DNA of 64,000 nt from contig NC_014836.1 of the NCBI RefSeq assembly GCF_000177635.2, positions 415,501 to 479,500 on the forward strand, given 5' to 3'. The position numbers and the translations under genes were made by a program. The notes below the pieces were generated by a model, which had not been told where the DNA came from, ran no database searches, and saw only the letters and a list, made by a program, of their open reading frames with translations. Below are positions 5,215 to 55,644 of the stretch, one piece after another; within the stretch, counting starts at the first letter, position 1, and the number at the start of each line of letters is the position of its first letter. The stretch is from Desulfurispirillum indicum S5. GTDB taxonomy: Bacteria; Chrysiogenota; Chrysiogenetes; Chrysiogenales; Chrysiogenaceae.

Positions 5215-6446
5215 CTATAAAGCGCATTGGCGTTGGATAGCAGCCTCTATCGAGGCTGCTGAGTGCTCACTCACACCAGCCTGTTCGGCAAACTCGCTGA
5301 AGCGCAGAACAGTTGAGCGCACCCGCTCAAGTATTGCTGTTGCCGATTTGATTCCATGGGCTTTGCCAAGCTCCTGCAGGTGCTTTCTGCCAGGATTGCG
5401 TCCTTCGCCCATCACCATGGTGCTGTGTTCACCACCTGGCCCATAGGAGAAAGTCAGGTCGTATGCGGGAGCAAACTTCCACTGGCGGGTATCGTCAAGC
5501 AGGCAGGAAAAATTCTTGCTGTGATCATCCCGGTTGTGGCAGAGCACGTTGAAGCAGGCCAGGGCAAAGGCTTTTTGCGTCTCCTGAAAGCTACGGGTGA
5601 CAAGTGTGGTGGCCTTGAGGACATCATCATAGTCCAGGCAGGGAGTGCGGTGGTCGGCATGCAGCAATCCGGCAAAGCTGTGAACATGGATGCGCCTGCC
5701 ATCAGCGCGGTCAAATCGCCTTATACCGAAGTACATGCCACGCTCCGTCCTGAAAAGCCTTGTGGCTGGGATCTCAATGCCCGCATCCTGGGCCATAAGG
5801 CTATAGGCATACTCTATTGGCCCAATATCAGCTGGATCTGATGTGGCCCGAAATTTCACTATCCAGCTCTCTGCATCTGCAGTACCTGAGCCTGCCCTTA
5901 CGATATCTCCGTTTACCACGTCTACCATTACCTTTGGCCTGTCCCCTGCCGAGGAGCCGCTGAGCAAGAGCAGGTCTTCGAGACAAGTGCTGTCATTGCC
6001 TTGCAGGAGTTCCCAGGATTCACGACAGAGCGTATCGAGTGAAATCTCCCCAGGTGCCGTGCTGCTCACAACATGTTGCTGAGGCTGGTAACTCAGCGCG
6101 CCCATGCCATTGACCCCAATAAGTGTCAAAAGGTCCAGGGGCGTGAGGCGGCGAACGTCAATAGCATGCCTGCGCAGCTGACGATCGAGCAGGAATCGCC
6201 CCCACCCGTCAGGCAGGCTGTCATTGAAGAGCCCGAAAAGCCCGTCAAATACCTTGGGGTCGCCAAAGCGACCCCCGCTTGCAGTGGGAGTTTGAAAGGG
6301 GAGAGCTCAAGAGAGTGGCCGATAAACTCAGGGTCGTACTCAAAGGCGATGCGGCGCTGGGACAAAGCCAGTCGCCCCATACGCACCGGCGGAGAAAAGC
6401 CGTGGTGAAAAAAGACGTTGAGCAGTGTAACGGGCAAGACCTTCAT
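5215..6446 (-). pseudogene. hipA: HipA-family kinase toxin, frameshifted
   Basis: HipA toxins are Ser/Thr kinases that phosphorylate glutamyl-tRNA synthetase and are neutralised by HipB. The N-terminal part (6446 down to about 6277) reads VRMGRLALSQRRIAFEYDPEF. The rest continues in another frame with VFDGLFGLFNDSLPDGWG, then GSSAGDRPKV, the kinase motif HNRDDHSKNF and FAPAYDL. The two frames join at a run of five C on the plus strand (6272-6276); one more base would restore a protein of about 410 aa. A separate start at 6129 gives a 304 aa C-terminal piece. The ATG at 6446 overlaps the hipB stop by 4 bases. Confidence 0.85.
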
Positions 6447-6748
6447 GTGCGGGAGCCCCGCTTGGGTGTTTTGCTGGCAGCCAGCAGTTCATCAAGGGAT
6501 TGGGGTGACCGATTTTGCGAATCGCAAACAGCAGAAAAATCGTCAAGACACCCAAGCACCAGGGCCAGCTTGAGGAGGGATTCCAGGGAAATCTGCCCCG
6601 TGTGCTCAAAGCGCTTCAGGGAGCCAAGGCTCACCCCCGAGCGCTGGGCAAGCCCCTCCTGGGTCAACTTCATCTGCAGACGACGCTCCCGGAAGCGCTG
6701 CTGCAAGTCTCTTTGTATTTCCCGTGGAGTTGCTGAATATATAGCCAA
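6443..6748 (-). CDS. hipB: HipB-like Xre-family antitoxin
   Basis: This 101 aa helix-turn-helix protein reads KLTQEGLAQRSGVSLGSLKRFEHTGQISL over about residues 27-55, the typical Xre/HipB recognition fold. HipB represses its own operon and binds HipA. It precedes the frameshifted hipA with an ATGA overlap, the usual antitoxin-first order. A palindrome at 6784-6799 upstream is a plausible operator. If hipA is truly dead, hipB is an orphan repressor. Confidence 0.8.
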   Translation of the reverse strand: MAIYSATPREIQRDLQQRFRERRLQMKLTQEGLAQRSGVSLGSLKRFEHTGQISLESLLKLALVLGCLDDFSAVCDSQNRSPQSLDELLAASKTPKRGSRT

Positions 6749-6783
6749 TATAATAGCCCCTGAGTGGTATTTTCGCTATCTAC

Positions 6784-6799
6784 GGATAATATATTATCC
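6784..6799. promoter_or_regulatory. Palindromic operator candidate for hipBA
   Basis: GGATAATATATTATCC is a perfect 16-bp palindrome located 36 bases upstream of hipB. A second GGATA-type pair (TATCTACGGATA) overlaps at 6777-6788. HipB operators are built from TATCC/GGATA half-sites. The rest of 6800-7042 contains only the duplicated leader of the next gene. Confidence 0.5.
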
Positions 6800-7042
6800 A
6801 CAAAATGCAGTCAATGCAATGCAACGATTTCCCTGAGGGAGTCAGGTGGAAAGCCTGCTGTCATCAGCTCCAGATTCATCAGCAAACGTGAAGTCCGACC
6901 GTTGCCATGGCAAAGGGGTGAATCATGACGAATTCGCCGTGTATCTCCTGGAATTTCATGCTTTCCGGTTTACGCGACGCAGGTTGTCGCCTGGCTGTTG
7001 TAGCATCAATCCAGAGTTAGAAAAACATCAAAGGAGAGCAGT

Positions 7043-47999: not shown

Positions 48000-50147
48000 T
48001 CAGGAGAGGGCGGATACCCGGAAGCGCCCCATCAGGCGCTGCAGCTTACTGCTGGTGTTGCGGGCGGTGTCCGAGGCCTGGGAGAGATGGACAACCGACT
48101 GGCGCACCTGGGTGGTGCTGCCGCGCACCTGGGAAATATTGGCGGCGTGGCCCTCACTGCGGGCGGAGATACGGCGGATGGCTTCCAGCATCTCTTCGAT
48201 GACATCATAGAGGCTGCTGTTATCCGCTGCAGCTTCTTCGGCCAGGCTCAGTCCGCGATCCACTTCACTGACGCCATTGTGCATGATCCCCACCGCCTGC
48301 TGGGTCTGGGCGCGCACGCTGGCCAGCATGGCGCTGATCTCCTTGGTGGCGTCGGTGGTGCGTTCGGCCAGCTTGCTGACTTCCTGGGCCACCACGGCGA
48401 AGCCTCGTCCGTACTGACCGGCACGGGCGGCCTCAATGGAGGCGTTCAGGGCCAGAAGGTTGGTCTGGCTGGCGATATCGTTGATGACATCGGCGATACC
48501 GGCGATCTCCTCCGTGCGCTGGTCAACTTCCTGAATACTGCGCGAAGAGCTGTGTATGGCATCGCGGATGCGCTGGGTCTCCCGGCGTACCTGCTGGAAC
48601 TGACTCTGGGCGTTGGCAATGACGCTGTCCATCTCCGCGCGCATCTGACCTGCGGTCACAGCAGCGCTGCTGGTTTCGCTCATCTGACTGTCCAGCTCCT
48701 GCAGCATGTTTTCTATGGCGGTTTCCATCTGACGGGTAGCGCTATCCACAAAGCGGTTCTGATCGATCATCTCGTCGTTGGCGTGGCGTGCTTCATGGGT
48801 GAAGCGAACCACCTGGTGGATCGTGCTGTCCAGGTTGTCAATGAAGCTGTTGATCCAGCGAGCCATTTCGCCGGTCTCATCGCCGCTGAGGTAGCGCTGG
48901 TCGAGCCGCAGGGAGAGATTTCCGCCTCCTTCGGCAATGGTGCGGATGACATCATTCATGGCTCGCATGCGCCCGACGATGCGGTTGACTCCCAGGCGGT
49001 AGAAGATCCAGGCGCTGCCGAGGAAGAGGGTGGCGTTGGCCATGTGAATAAGCGGAGCGGCCAGGCCGATGCCAAAGGTGAAGAAGAGATTCAGAGCGCC
49101 CATGCCGGTGATGATAACCAGGAACATGCGCATGAGCAGATAATTGATGGAGCGGCGGCGGTAGACCTCCTCCAGGTCTGCTTCGCACATCATGCCCCAG
49201 GTGTCCAGGGATCCGGGCAGCTGGAAGGTGACGCCCTTGCCGATAACGGGAATATGGCGATAGTCGGAGTAGCCGGGGTATTTGATGTAGAGGTTCTGAC
49301 CATTTCTGATGGTCTCGCGCACACCGGGGTGCAGCTGACCGGTGGCAGGGTCCGTGAACGTGATTTCAAACTCGGTGTGGTTGTGGATTTTGATAACGCC
49401 ATAACCGGAGTCAATACCCTCCTTCAGGTTCTCGCCATGGGAGAAGGTGCTGTCCTCAAAGCGCGAGCGGGAGAGGGCGGTGCCGACGGGAATGCGGGAG
49501 TCGAAAACCGGTTTTACCATGAAGATATAATTGTCGCCGGATTCAGGATAGATGTGCCCGGCTTCGCGCTGAATCAGGTCGCTGACCACGTCATTGGGCA
49601 CCCTGGCGCAGAGCACACCCAGGGTCTGGCCACTGCTGTCGCAGATAGGCTGGTGGAACATCAGGGTAACCGCATCGTGGAATGACGAAGTGGTAGGGCC
49701 GATGCGTTCGGTGTCCGGATCAACATAGGGGCCATGGAGGAAGGGCTGACGCAGGCCCACGGCCAGGGCCTGTTCGCTGAAGGTGCGCTTTCCTTTGCGC
49801 CAGGGTAGAGTCGATGCCAGGATCATGCCTGCCGGGTCGACCACGAAGAGCTCCGCGATCTCCAGCAGCCGCGAGCGGCGTGCTTCGATGATGCTCCCTG
49901 TCTGGGAGACATCCTCTCCCAGCTGGTCTGCCAGATGGCGCAGATATTCCCACTTCTGCTGTGTCCAGTCCTGCAGCAGGGTGGTGCGGGTCTGGGCAAT
50001 GCCCTCGAAGGTTTCTTCCACCGCATGGTATGAATGACGATTCAGCAGGCACGACCAGCCCATTGCCAGTTTACCGGTACGGCCCGTCCAGGGGAGCCAG
50101 CGTCGTTCGCTGGCGGTCAGGGACATCGCGTCGCTTGTGAGTAACAT
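48000..50147 (-). CDS. Methyl-accepting chemotaxis protein, unusual topology
   Basis: This 715 aa chemoreceptor has a Cache-like sensor region (about residues 45-345), two close hydrophobic helices at about 360-415 and a HAMP-like linker. The signalling domain has hairpin tip [36 protein letters not shown] near residue 575. I see no hydrophobic helix before the sensor region, so it may face the cytoplasm, with the helix pair as a membrane hairpin. A sigma54-type promoter lies 41 bases upstream. Confidence 0.88.
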
Positions 50148-51197: not shown

Positions 51198-51291
51198 TAT
51201 GGTTTACAATGATTTTGCAGCTCAGATTGTGGGAGTCCGTGTGGCTGCGCGGCAATTTTCAAGCTATGTTTTATTTCGGGAGGTTTGTTCC

Positions 51292-52842
51292 ATGGGGGAG
51301 AAAATTATTATTGACCCCGTCACACGCATTGAGGGGCATCTGCGCGTCGAGACGGCCATGGAAGGCCGACGGGTCAAATCAGCCCGCTGCAGTGGCGACA
51401 TGTTCCGAGGCATTGAAAAGGCCCTCAAGGGGTTTGACGCCCGGGTAGCCCAGCATATTACCCAGCGCACCTGCGGGGTTTGCCCGTACGCCCACGCGGA
51501 AGCTTCGGCCCTGGCCCTGGAGAGTGCCATGGGCATCCGGCCCAATGTCAATGGTCAGCTGCTGCGCAATCTCACCGTCGGAGTTTACCAGATTAAGGAT
51601 CACCTGCTGCATTTTTATACCCTGTGCGCCCTGGATTTTATTGATATCACCGCCGTACTGGAATACCGGGGCAATGATCAGGCGCTGCTGCAGGTGAAGT
51701 CGTGGGTTCAGCATGAACTGGCCAATAACAAGGTATTTCCGGCGGCGCCTTTTCTGCCCCGTTACGAAGCAACCTACTGTTCTGACCATGAAGTAAATAT
51801 TTCCGGAATAAAAGGCTACCTTGATGCCATCGAAATCATGGCCCAACTGCACAAGATGGTGGCCATCTTCGGTGCCAAAGCGCCCCATCCGGTGGCCATT
51901 GAGGCGGGTGGCGTGACCACCATGCCAACGGTGGACCGCCTCGCCCACTTCGGCACTCTGCTCAGCCACTGCACAGATTTTGTGCGCAATCGCTACGGCA
52001 ATGATGTCCTGGCAGTGGCTAAGGCCTTTCCCGCTTACTTCAAGGAAGGCAAAGGCTATGGGAATACCCTCTCGGCTCCCTATCTGCCCGACGGCAATGG
52101 CGAGAATTTCTTCTTCGCCGGTGGCGTCACCATCGGAGGAAGCTATCGCCCCCTGGATCTGGGGAAAATTACCGAGGACCACTCCTACGCTTACTACCAC
52201 AATGGTTCCAGCCCCCTGCTGCGCCCGCTGCAGACTGATACCCTGCGCCCTCTGAGCGCCCGTGACTTTGAAGTCGAGCAGGGGAAGGTCGATGGCAAGT
52301 ACAGCTGGAACCGTGCGCCGCGCTATGATGGTCATGCCATGGAGGTGGGCCCGGCAGCCCGGGTGGTCAATACCTACCGCAGTGGTTCCAATCCAGAGCT
52401 GACCGCCATGGTCAACCGCCTGAATCGTGAACTGGGTATTACCATTGACGACTACCCCTCCGTTATGGGTCGTCACCTGAGTCGCTATATTCTGGCGGAC
52501 CTTACCCTGCGGCACATGGAGCGGCAGCTGGCGGAAGTGCGTCCCGACGTGCTTGGCTTCACCCACCACCCGGTGCCGGTGAATGCGCGAGGGGTCGGCA
52601 TCACCGAAGCGACCCGCGGTGCCCTGGCTCACTGGATTGAAACCGATGGCAAGGGCGTGATCCGCAACTACGAGATGGTGGTTCCCACCACCTGGAATAT
52701 GTCTCCCCGCGATGGCCGTGGCAACCCCGGTGCGGTGGAGAAGATGCTGGAGGGTACCGAGGTGGCCGATGCCGCCAATCCCATGGAGCTGGCGCGCATT
52801 GTGCGCTCAACAGACCCCTGTATCGGCTGTTCGGTACATTGA
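51292..52842 (+). CDS. [NiFe] hydrogenase large subunit without C-terminal extension
   Basis: This 516 aa subunit holds the Ni-Fe(CN)2CO site for H2 oxidation or evolution. The N-terminal motif RTCGVCPYAHAEA gives Cys61 and Cys64; the C-terminal motif DPCIGCSVH gives Cys510 and Cys513. The protein ends at that His516. Most large subunits carry 10-25 more residues that an endopeptidase removes; sensory (HupV/HoxC) and CooH-type subunits do not. The start MGEKIIIDPVTRIEGH at 51292 has GGGAGG upstream. The large subunit precedes the small one, the reverse of the common order. No maturation genes are in the window. Confidence 0.93.
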   Translation: MGEKIIIDPVTRIEGHLRVETAMEGRRVKSARCSGDMFRGIEKALKGFDARVAQHITQRTCGVCPYAHAEASALALESAMGIRPNVNGQLLRNLTVGVYQIKDHLLHFYTLCALDFIDITAVLEYRGNDQALLQVKSWVQHELANNKVFPAAPFLPRYEATYCSDHEVNISGIKGYLDAIEIMAQLHKMVAIFGAKAPHPVAIEAGGVTTMPTVDRLAHFGTLLSHCTDFVRNRYGNDVLAVAKAFPAYFKEGKGYGNTLSAPYLPDGNGENFFFAGGVTIGGSYRPLDLGKITEDHSYAYYHNGSSPLLRPLQTDTLRPLSARDFEVEQGKVDGKYSWNRAPRYDGHAMEVGPAARVVNTYRSGSNPELTAMVNRLNRELGITIDDYPSVMGRHLSRYILADLTLRHMERQLAEVRPDVLGFTHHPVPVNARGVGITEATRGALAHWIETDGKGVIRNYEMVVPTTWNMSPRDGRGNPGAVEKMLEGTEVADAANPMELARIVRSTDPCIGCSVH

Positions 52843-52852
52843 AGGAGGACGC

Positions 52853-53797
52853 ATGTTTACTGAAATTTCCAGGAATATCGACCGGCGCCAGGCCCTGAAG
52901 CGGATTTTTGCAGCCATTACGGCCGTGGGCGCGTCGTCATTCCTTTCGTTTGAGGATCTGCTGGCGGCTGACGCAAGCCCCCGGAAACCTCTCAATATTC
53001 TGTGGCTGCACGGAAGCTCCTGTACCGGCTGCTCGTGCGCCCTGCTGGACATCGAAAAGGTGCCGGTGCTGGATGTTCTCACCCGCTTTGCCCATATCGT
53101 CTTCCACCATGACCTCTCCCTGGCCACTGGCGATCAGGTCATCGCCATCAAGGAGAAGCTGCTGGCTTCGGAAGAGCCTTTTGTGCTGGTGCTGGAGGGT
53201 TCCATCCCCGTGAGCATGCCCCATACCTGCATGGTGGGGCACCGCACCATGGATTCCTGGATGGAGCGCATTCTGCCAAAGGCCACGGCCTGTATCGCGG
53301 CAGGAACCTGCGCCAGCTTCGGCGGTATTACCAAAATGCCCGGTATGGACACAGGTTGCATGGGACTTTTGCAGTACTCCAGTTTCAAAGGGTATACCAC
53401 GCCGTTGATCACCCTGCCCGGTTGCCCCATGAAGCCCGAACACCTGCTCTATGCCCTGCTCTACTTTACCGCCCATGGGCGACCACCCGCGAGTGATCGC
53501 TATGGACGTCCCCGGCATATGTTCGGACGCACGGTTCACGACCGCTGTGTGAACTACGCTGACTTTCAGGAAAACTACTTTGCCCGCAGGATCGGCGAGG
53601 ATGGCTGTCTGCTGAAGCTTGGCTGTCAGGGAATGGTGACCCGCAGCGACTGCGTGGTACAGGGTTACAATAATAATACCAATACCTGCATACGTGCCGG
53701 ACACCCCTGTATCGGATGCTCCGGGGAGAGCTTTCCGCGGCGGGTGATGTTCCACAGTTATGATGACAGCCGCGATATCATTCCAAGGAGGCCCTGA
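52853..53797 (+). CDS. [NiFe] hydrogenase small subunit with Tat signal
   Basis: This 314 aa subunit carries the iron-sulfur chain. The N-terminus has a twin-arginine signal ([10 protein letters not shown], Arg11-Arg12, then a mild hydrophobic stretch), so the dimer should be exported folded to the periplasm. Proximal-cluster cysteines appear in [15 protein letters not shown] and LPGCP. Distal and medial ligands appear in [14 protein letters not shown] and HPCIGC. There is no C-terminal membrane helix, and no cytochrome b gene follows, so electrons need another acceptor. GAAGGAGG precedes the ATG; the next gene begins 2 bases after the stop. Confidence 0.93.
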
Positions 53798-53799
53798 CC

Positions 53800-55644
53800 A
53801 TGCATGCTGCAGAGGATCGTGTCTCGTTTTTCCACTCCCTGATCTTCCGGTCCATCGCCTACCTGATGATCAGTGCCTTTATCCTGTTTCTGATCTCCTT
53901 TTTCCTCTATCAGGGCTGGCAGGAGCGCCTGATTCAGCAGCGCCTGGTGGAACATGGCAACAGCTACATGGAGATGCTGGTGGCCAACACGGCCGACTCC
54001 ATTGCCAAGGGGCAGCGCAACTCCTTTCAGAACGTGATAGACAGTTTCACCCAGGTCAACGAGGTGGATGAAGTGGCCATGTACGGGCGCAACTACGGTC
54101 TCATGAACTATGTCTCCAACCAGGTGACCGTCGGCATCCCTTTTGTGCAGCACAACGGAACCTTTGTGAACCCCAACGAGCAGCTGTATCGCGAAAGCCG
54201 CGGCATGTACCACCGCAAGGACTGGCATATGGTGGACATGGAGGAGACGGAGCAGGGCCTTGCCCACGTGCGGATAACCCAGGCGGCGGGGCAGAGCTGC
54301 GTGGACTGCCACATCGCCATCAATCCCGATATCCGGTTCGATAACGGTTTTGCCCATGCTCTGGACAATGGCCGTTCGCACTTCTACTACCGCATGGAGG
54401 TCACCCGTGACTGTATCTCCTGCCATACCAACTGGCGTGAGGGAGAGACGGCGTCCTACCTGCGCATCTCCCTGAATAATCACGCCATGGACGAGCAGCG
54501 ACGGGAGAATACCCTGGGAATCCTCTTTGTCATGGCATCGGTACTGGTTCCCCTGCTGATCATCGTGATTCTCATCATGCGCCTGATGATCTACCGGCCC
54601 CTTTCAAGGGCCCTGCGCTTCGCCCAGGGCGTGGCGGCCGGGAACCGTTCCCATCAGCTGGACGCCAGGGAGAAAAACGAAATCGGTCAGCTGGGGCGTG
54701 CCCTCAACAAGATGATGGACAATATCAACGACGCCGTGCGCGATGCCGCCCGGCAGGTGGGCAGTGTCAGCGAGCGGGTCAGTGATATTTCAGGCCAGCT
54801 GTTTGCCCATATCGAGCAGGCCAGCCGCGGTGCTCAGCAGCAGAGCGAGAAAACCCAGAAGACGGCCCACGCCATGGATGTCATGAGCTCCACCATGGTG
54901 GAAGTGGCCCAGAAGACCTCCGAAACCCATGAAGCGGCGGAGTCGGCCAAACACAAGGCGGCCGAAGGTTCCGAAGCGGTGCGTCAGGTGGTGCAGTCCA
55001 TCAACCACGCCCGCACGCAGTCCCTGAGCCTCAAGGAGAACATGGGTATTCTGGCCCGTCAGGCCGAAGATATCGGGCAGATCATGAACCTGATTCGCGA
55101 CATCGCCGATCAGACCAACCTGCTGGCGCTGAATGCCGCCATTGAAGCGGCCCGGGCCGGCGAGTCGGGACGGGGATTTTCGGTGGTGGCCGATGAGGTG
55201 CGCAAGCTGGCCGAGAAGACCATGGAGGCCACAAAGAATGTTACCCAGGCTGTGGAAGCCATTCAGCGCGGTGCCCGGGATAATATGGAAAATGTCGATC
55301 AGACCACCAGCGTTATCGGCGAAGCCACCGAGAGGGCGAACCAGTCCGGCGAGTCCCTGCAGGAGATCGTGACCCTGGTGCAGTCAGCCACGGATCAGAT
55401 TCGCCTGATTGCCCGAGCCATGGAGGAGCAGTCCGCCACCAGTGAGGAAATTAACAGTTCCATTGACGATATTCGTCGCATATCTCTGGAAACCAGCCAG
55501 TCCATGGAGCACTCCTACCACGATGTGGAAGAGCTCGCCGCCCAGGCAGATCAACTGCAGAAAACCATCGAGAAAATGCGTCAGGGGGATGTGGAAGACG
55601 GCGGCAGGCATCTGCCGCGCCTGGCGGAAGGACGGCAGGGGTAG
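53800..55644 (+). CDS. Di-haem c-type methyl-accepting chemotaxis protein
   Basis: This 614 aa chemoreceptor has TM1 at about residues 14-38. Its periplasmic sensor domain (to ~235) contains two haem-attachment motifs: CVDCH (Cys167, Cys170, His171) and CISCH (Cys205, Cys208, His209). TM2 follows at about 240-265, then a HAMP domain and an MA signalling domain with the tip [23 protein letters not shown]. The sensor resembles DUF3365/Tll0287-like haem domains; DcrA of Desulfovibrio and some Geobacter receptors are haem-bearing precedents. Being 2 bases behind the hydrogenase small subunit, it is a plausible electron acceptor or reporter of that enzyme. Confidence 0.93.

Follow-up and report, generated by a model that had tools for sequence, protein, structure and literature searches.

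What function is served by a [NiFe] hydrogenase whose structural genes are directly followed by a gene for a chemoreceptor? Such an arrangement is present in the genome of Desulfurispirillum indicum S5, in a stretch of 64,000 nucleotides (contig NC_014836.1, positions 415,501 to 479,500 of the forward strand), referred to below as the window. The genes hydL and hydS, encoding the large and small hydrogenase subunits, and the gene of a methyl-accepting chemotaxis protein (MCP) with c-type haem motifs are located there on the plus strand, with intergenic gaps of 10 and 2 bases. According to the original prediction, made from sequence alone, this hydrogenase reduces the haems of the receptor and so controls swimming towards H2. 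Computational analysis makes it likely that HydLS and the haem receptor form a periplasmic H2-sensing module, in which H2 oxidation would reduce the receptor haem. The sensory part of the prediction was strengthened by the conservation of the three genes, by traits shared with H2-sensing hydrogenases and by the presence of an ordinary, cytochrome-b-linked hydrogenase elsewhere in the genome. It was corrected in three respects: the operon represents a family and not a single oddity, the outputs extend beyond taxis, and the di-haem form is found only in the clade of the window.

Features of the hydrogenase and the receptor

The product of hydL retains all four nickel ligands, in the motifs RxCGVC and DPCxxCxxH, as well as the RIEGH motif, by which it is predicted to be a catalytically competent [NiFe] hydrogenase; it ends with DPCIGCSVH, without an extension. 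In the alignment of the hydS product, all ligands of the FeS clusters are present. This subunit begins with a signal of the twin-arginine translocation (Tat) type, containing DRRQAL, and has no hydrophobic C-terminal helix (best 19-residue mean of -0.71 vs. 1.5 to 2.1 in nearly all canonical small subunits scored). At the medial cluster, comparison with HoxB, HoxK and HyaA revealed Cys where canonical small subunits have Pro, and, by the precedent of regulatory hydrogenases (RH) and [NiFeSe] enzymes, a [4Fe-4S] cluster is predicted instead of [3Fe-4S]. No cytochrome b gene was found after the three genes in the window; the next gene downstream of the receptor, on the opposite strand, encodes an ATP-binding cassette (ABC) transporter. 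The arrangement on one strand, the Tat signal without a membrane anchor and the lack of a following cytochrome b, all named in the original prediction, agree with the coordinates, Pfam matches, hydrophobicity and downstream neighbour.

The same set of traits, namely, the absence of a tail, an anchor and cytochrome b, characterizes the related loci in which hydL and hydS adjoin a haem sensor (sensory loci), while canonical relatives show the opposite traits. The extension after DPCxxCxxH is 0 in 37 of 37 tabulated sensory loci, compared with 15-22 residues in canonical relatives; the extension of canonical large subunits is normally removed by a dedicated protease. The medial Cys was found in all tabulated sensory loci except L114, the row of which also shows an anchor-like score, because the script picked the proximal cluster motif; the row was left as it came out. 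In the tree of large subunits, the sensory ones do not belong to the canonical clade (100/100), are separate from HoxC and form two or three branches, with which a single origin would be compatible. The hydL of the window groups with those of the genomes G001 and G002 and the loci L100-L102 (100/100).

The C-terminal extension, the anchored small subunit and the cytochrome b or quinone-reactive partner, typical for membrane-bound respiratory uptake enzymes of group 1, are thus absent from the window enzyme, and the respiratory canonical clade of this group excludes it at 100/100. A separate canonical hydrogenase (L037), with an anchored small subunit, cytochrome b and a protease gene, is encoded in the D. 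indicum genome, so a different enzyme is available for ordinary H2 oxidation. A third hydrogenase-family gene (L038, G000:C1:2199819-2201057) is located near a carbon-monoxide-dehydrogenase-like gene.

The receptor has the layout of c-haem chemoreceptors of the DcrA/GSU0935 type: two transmembrane (TM) helices (TM1, about residues 18-36; TM2, about 241-259) around a periplasmic domain with CxxCH motifs, followed by HAMP and MCP domains. As had been predicted, both motifs (residues 167-171 and 205-209) lie between the helices. A PAS-like fold of the haem domain is suggested by structural models, more firmly by that of a mono-haem relative (predicted local distance difference test, pLDDT, of 86), which matches extracellular PAS/Cache sensor domains including those of GSU0935 and GSU0582 (3b42, 3b47), than by that of the window domain (pLDDT of 75). 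Matches to the folds of WalK and DvhD were judged to reflect general Cache/PAS similarity. When solved structures were searched with a profile of the haem domain, the matches, to GSU0582 and Tll0287, were all below threshold.

Conservation of the triplet and exchange of outputs

The search of genomes for hyd large-small-sensor triplets, proposed together with the prediction, yielded 37 loci besides the window; the 38 loci read come from anaerobic bacteria of three phyla and have differing flanks. All three family members examined contain the triplet, with hydL identities to the window of 77% (G002) and about 71% (G001). Their flanks differ, and only an upstream divergent response regulator gene is common to the window and G002 (L039, 14260-14955), being absent from G001. 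In the Deferribacteres, a label that is the author's reading of the grouping of the window's phylum, the receptor haem domain gave weak matches, located just downstream of short hydL genes that an independent search had detected, and 16 further triplets were found in the regions read.

In 395 genomes of Thermodesulfobacteriota (the phylum of a Mailhella contig), a search with the haem-domain profile was performed and the 20 top loci were fetched. The sensor is adjoined by hydL and hydS in 18 of them, a rate that is biased because the profile was built from hydrogenase-linked sensors; L097 and L115 lack both genes. The converse search of the same genomes with a small-subunit profile placed sensor-linked small subunits at the top, and by coordinates about 23 such loci, five of them unread, are present in 19 genomes. 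Among 301 Chloroflexota genomes, searched with the small-subunit profile only, one match reached 268 bits, near the sensory score; in this locus (L118), found without the haem-domain query, hydL has no tail, hydS has no anchor and a haem sensor is present, while the matches ranking next (about 240 bits) resemble canonical small subunits in their hydrophobic C-terminus. No strong match was detected in 24 Nitrospinota genomes. When genomes were scanned with the large subunit as sole query, only canonical or [NiFeSe]-like hydrogenases were returned, and the plasmid search yielded, among the matches listed, only hydrogenases of less than 40% identity, mostly of ordinary kinds. In the locus L066, hydS and the sensor gene are separated by an opposite-strand open reading frame (5533-6954), the start of which is found again in another part of the fragment and which is probably a mobile element splitting the operon.

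The partner protein of the sensory loci always carries a periplasmic c-haem domain of the PAS/Cache type, which is alike throughout the relatives and in which the last CxxCH is invariant. A single haem is the usual condition, and the second motif occurs only in the clade of the window and in one orphan paralogue of G001; the second haem was accordingly dropped as a general feature. Mono-haem sensors have a conserved Met in the motif [KR]G[NEQD]M, which aligns, as a weak match, with GDM of GSU0582 and, by analogy with Met60 of GSU0935, is the presumed axial ligand. Di-haem members have GQR at this position and two further conserved His, 156 and 194, which may serve as haem ligands.

The output, in contrast to the input, is variable. 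A common input is combined with several kinds of MCP domain, some of which include the zinc-binding CZB domain; with PAS-GGDEF (L065) and PAS-GGDEF-EAL (L070, L072); and with an Hpt-HATPase kinase, downstream of which CheX and a CheY-like protein are encoded (L100-L102). Taxis, the role originally proposed, is therefore not the sole output, since cyclic di-GMP (c-di-GMP) and kinase outputs are represented in relatives.

Proposed periplasmic H2 sensing and alternative explanations

The proposed module would operate as follows. HydL-HydS would mature in the cytoplasm without C-terminal proteolysis, be exported in the folded state via Tat and remain soluble. H2 would be bound at the NiFe site, and three predicted [4Fe-4S] clusters would conduct electrons to the c-haem in the PAS/Cache domain of the adjacent receptor, with which the hydrogenase is presumed to form a complex. 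Reduction of the haem would alter its axial ligation or conformation, and the signal would reach the output domain via TM2 and HAMP; a periplasmic oxidant would be required for resetting. Since an MCP signalling domain provides the output in the window, H2 is expected to bias CheA and swimming there, while in relatives the same input would drive c-di-GMP enzymes or a kinase. D. indicum is motile (PMC3368425), its genome contains 28 genes with MCP domains and three of CheA, and the module probably controls taxis in this organism. Midpoint potentials of related haem sensors are -156 and -251 mV (PMC8396549). For the H+/H2 couple at pH 7, the Nernst equation gives about -414 mV with 1 bar of H2 and about -300 mV with 10 Pa, which is below these values, so that, by this estimate, H2 could reduce such haems even at trace levels.

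Several points weigh against this reading. Its support is computational throughout. The recorded electron donors of D. indicum are acetate, lactate and pyruvate, not H2 (PMC3368425). The presumed axial ligand differs between mono- and di-haem types, and a single switch mechanism may not apply to every member. In addition, such haem domains occur without a neighbouring hydrogenase (L074, L097, L115, L073 and many weaker matches), which implies the existence of other redox inputs. The last observation also suits an explanation in which HydLS is an ordinary soluble uptake enzyme feeding the periplasmic pool of cytochromes c, while the receptor, like DcrA, monitors the redox state of this pool and is co-transcribed for convenience; reduction of cytochromes c by soluble hydrogenases of the Desulfovibrio type is well established. 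The separate cytochrome-b-linked hydrogenase speaks against this explanation, as do the unusual traits of the hydrogenase, which always accompany the haem sensor and not other redox partners. In pairwise comparisons, which use saturated distances and, for the MCP, a very conserved region, and are weakened thereby, divergence of the haem domain follows that of hydL (rho 0.76) better than does divergence of the MCP signalling tip (rho 0.39). Together with the exchange of outputs, through which the family persists, this indicates that the conserved functional unit consists of hydL, hydS and the haem domain. Pool monitoring is thus considered unlikely. Two genomes of the phylum of the window encode, a few kb upstream of the triplet, proteins with 11 CxxCH motifs (L064, 123-1640; L067, 358-1857), which are possible alternative electron partners.

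One close analogue is the RH (HoxBC/HupUV, group 2b) with its kinase HoxJ, in which a dedicated hydrogenase is likewise coupled to signalling. The C-terminal tail is missing from HoxC of Cupriavidus necator too, and HoxB also has the medial Cys; the RH is reported to contain three [4Fe-4S] clusters, the medial one of which was concluded to suit streamlined electron transfer in H2 sensors (PMC5665086). However, the RH is cytoplasmic and has no Tat signal, which is present in hydS of the window; its partner is a soluble kinase without haem; and the gas-channel residues are Ile and Phe in HoxC (CGIC, FYLF) but Val and Leu in the window (CGVC, FYTL). In the tree, HoxC groups not with the sensory set but with the cytoplasmic kinase-linked loci L056 and L059. 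Identity with a true RH was rejected on the basis of the Tat signal, gas-channel residues and tree position. In L056 (5063-9608) and L059 (4020-8562), belonging to two genomes of the phylum of the window, genes of small and large hydrogenase subunits without an export signal precede that of a PAS histidine kinase, and, given the grouping of their large subunit with HoxC, these genomes also carry the usual cytoplasmic H2 sensor.

The RH-like traits could also be explained if HydLS docks on the receptor and senses H2 by a conformational or contact change, as proposed for HoxBC-HoxJ, while the haem senses redox state or a gas separately and acts as a gate of the response, e.g., against oxidants. 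In line with such a gate, the haems of GSU0582 and GSU0935 bind CO and NO and switch ligands (PMC8396549). Nevertheless, the full FeS wire, including the His-ligated distal cluster, is conserved and would be superfluous for a pure contact sensor, and the haem is present in every output type; this alternative appears improbable, more so than pool monitoring. As for a local accident of gene neighbourhood without a functional unit, many MCP genes are present per genome (28 in D. indicum), but the same gene order in 38 loci of three phyla with differing flanks, and the position of canonical hydrogenases of the same genomes away from MCP genes, contradict it, and it was dropped as having a negligible probability.

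Electron transfer from HydLS to the receptor haem, the preferred reading, extends with somewhat less confidence to a class of modular H2 receptors. In these, a sensory [NiFe] hydrogenase, after export, would serve a haem receptor as ligand-to-electron converter, and this input would be combined with chemotaxis, c-di-GMP and phosphorelay outputs. The orphan paralogue of G001 (L073, 7759-9240) is a diguanylate cyclase, the di-haem periplasmic domain of which is about 50% identical to that of the window receptor, with no hydrogenase gene beside it; it may use the HydLS of G001 in trans, and this relative would then possess two outputs. As a set of loci, the class is conserved and real; it would behave like a sensory hydrogenase, yet lies outside group 2b, and like a haem chemoreceptor, but with a dedicated enzyme partner.

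DcrA, GSU0582 and GSU0935 likewise carry a periplasmic PAS-type c-haem domain on an MCP, and a redox-linked ligand switch was reported for both Geobacter proteins (PMC8396549); however, a dedicated hydrogenase is undescribed for the three proteins, and the sequence similarity to them is very weak. H2 sensing via methyl-accepting proteins was also proposed for the putative chemotactic [FeFe] group C2 (HydDB), an unrelated metalloenzyme class with the [FeFe] H-cluster, while the enzyme described here is a periplasmic [NiFe] hydrogenase with a proposed haem relay. A link from H2 to c-di-GMP was proposed for the putative diguanylate-cyclase-linked [NiFe] group 2c (HydDB), which belongs to group 2, whereas in L065, L070 and L072 the partners are haem-GGDEF proteins of an exported group-1-like enzyme. 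The sensory enzymes resemble the periplasmic [NiFe] and [NiFeSe] hydrogenases of group 1 in fold, active-site ligands and Tat export, and the medial Cys is common to sensory hydS and [NiFeSe]-like small subunits (L032, L033); canonical group 1 enzymes differ by the C-terminal extension and, usually, the anchor and cytochrome b, and in the tree the sensory enzymes branch separately.

Most of the dedicated H2 receptors known so far act in the cytoplasm and regulate hydrogenase genes. In the proposed class, extracytoplasmic enzyme turnover would directly become a signal, and the wire from the distal FeS cluster to the haem could be assayed with purified parts. The class would explain in molecular terms both H2 taxis and the control of c-di-GMP by H2 in anaerobes living on H2 gradients, would be recognizable in genome surveys, where its members are perhaps now counted as uptake hydrogenases, and would suggest a natural design for H2 biosensors. 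In agreement with the original prediction, no earlier description of the pairing of a hydrogenase with a haem receptor was found in the open-access papers searched, and the class is apparently undescribed. In a 2025 survey of gene neighbourhoods, one table contains an MCP cluster with 87 genes in the vicinity of [NiFe] large subunits (PMC12727194); this cluster may include some of these loci.

Coordinates and neighbouring genes

Features of the operon and the divergent regulator gene, in window coordinates
Feature	Position	Strand	Pfam match or remark
Divergent response regulator with winged helix	50373..51107	-	Response_reg + Trans_reg_C
hydL, [NiFe] hydrogenase large subunit, 516 aa	51292..52842	+	PF00374 (NiFeSe_Hases), E 4e-130
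hydS, Tat-exported small subunit, 314 aa	52853..53797	+	PF14720 (NiFe_hyd_SSU_C), PF01058 (Oxidored_q6)
Chemoreceptor (MCP), 614 aa: TM1, di-haem periplasmic domain, TM2, HAMP, MCP signalling domain	53800..55644	+	PF00015 (MCPsignal), PF00672 (HAMP)
Periplasmic haem domain of receptor, ~residues 38-241	53911..54522	+	predicted PAS/Cache-type fold; second haem motif invariant in relatives
Haem motif CVDCH of receptor	54298-54312	+	
Haem motif CISCH of receptor	54412-54426	+	

An in-frame ATG is present upstream of hydL at 51199, while the tabulated start is the one used by relatives. The divergent response regulator is a possible regulator of the operon. Just upstream of the operon region, a second chemoreceptor with a weak dCache match is encoded (48000-50147, minus strand). 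Elsewhere in the genome, the regions G000:C1:1370705-1373354 and 1744389-1747038 agree exactly in their MCP scores and in the scores and frames of CheA (806 aa), which suggests a duplicated chemosensory cluster.

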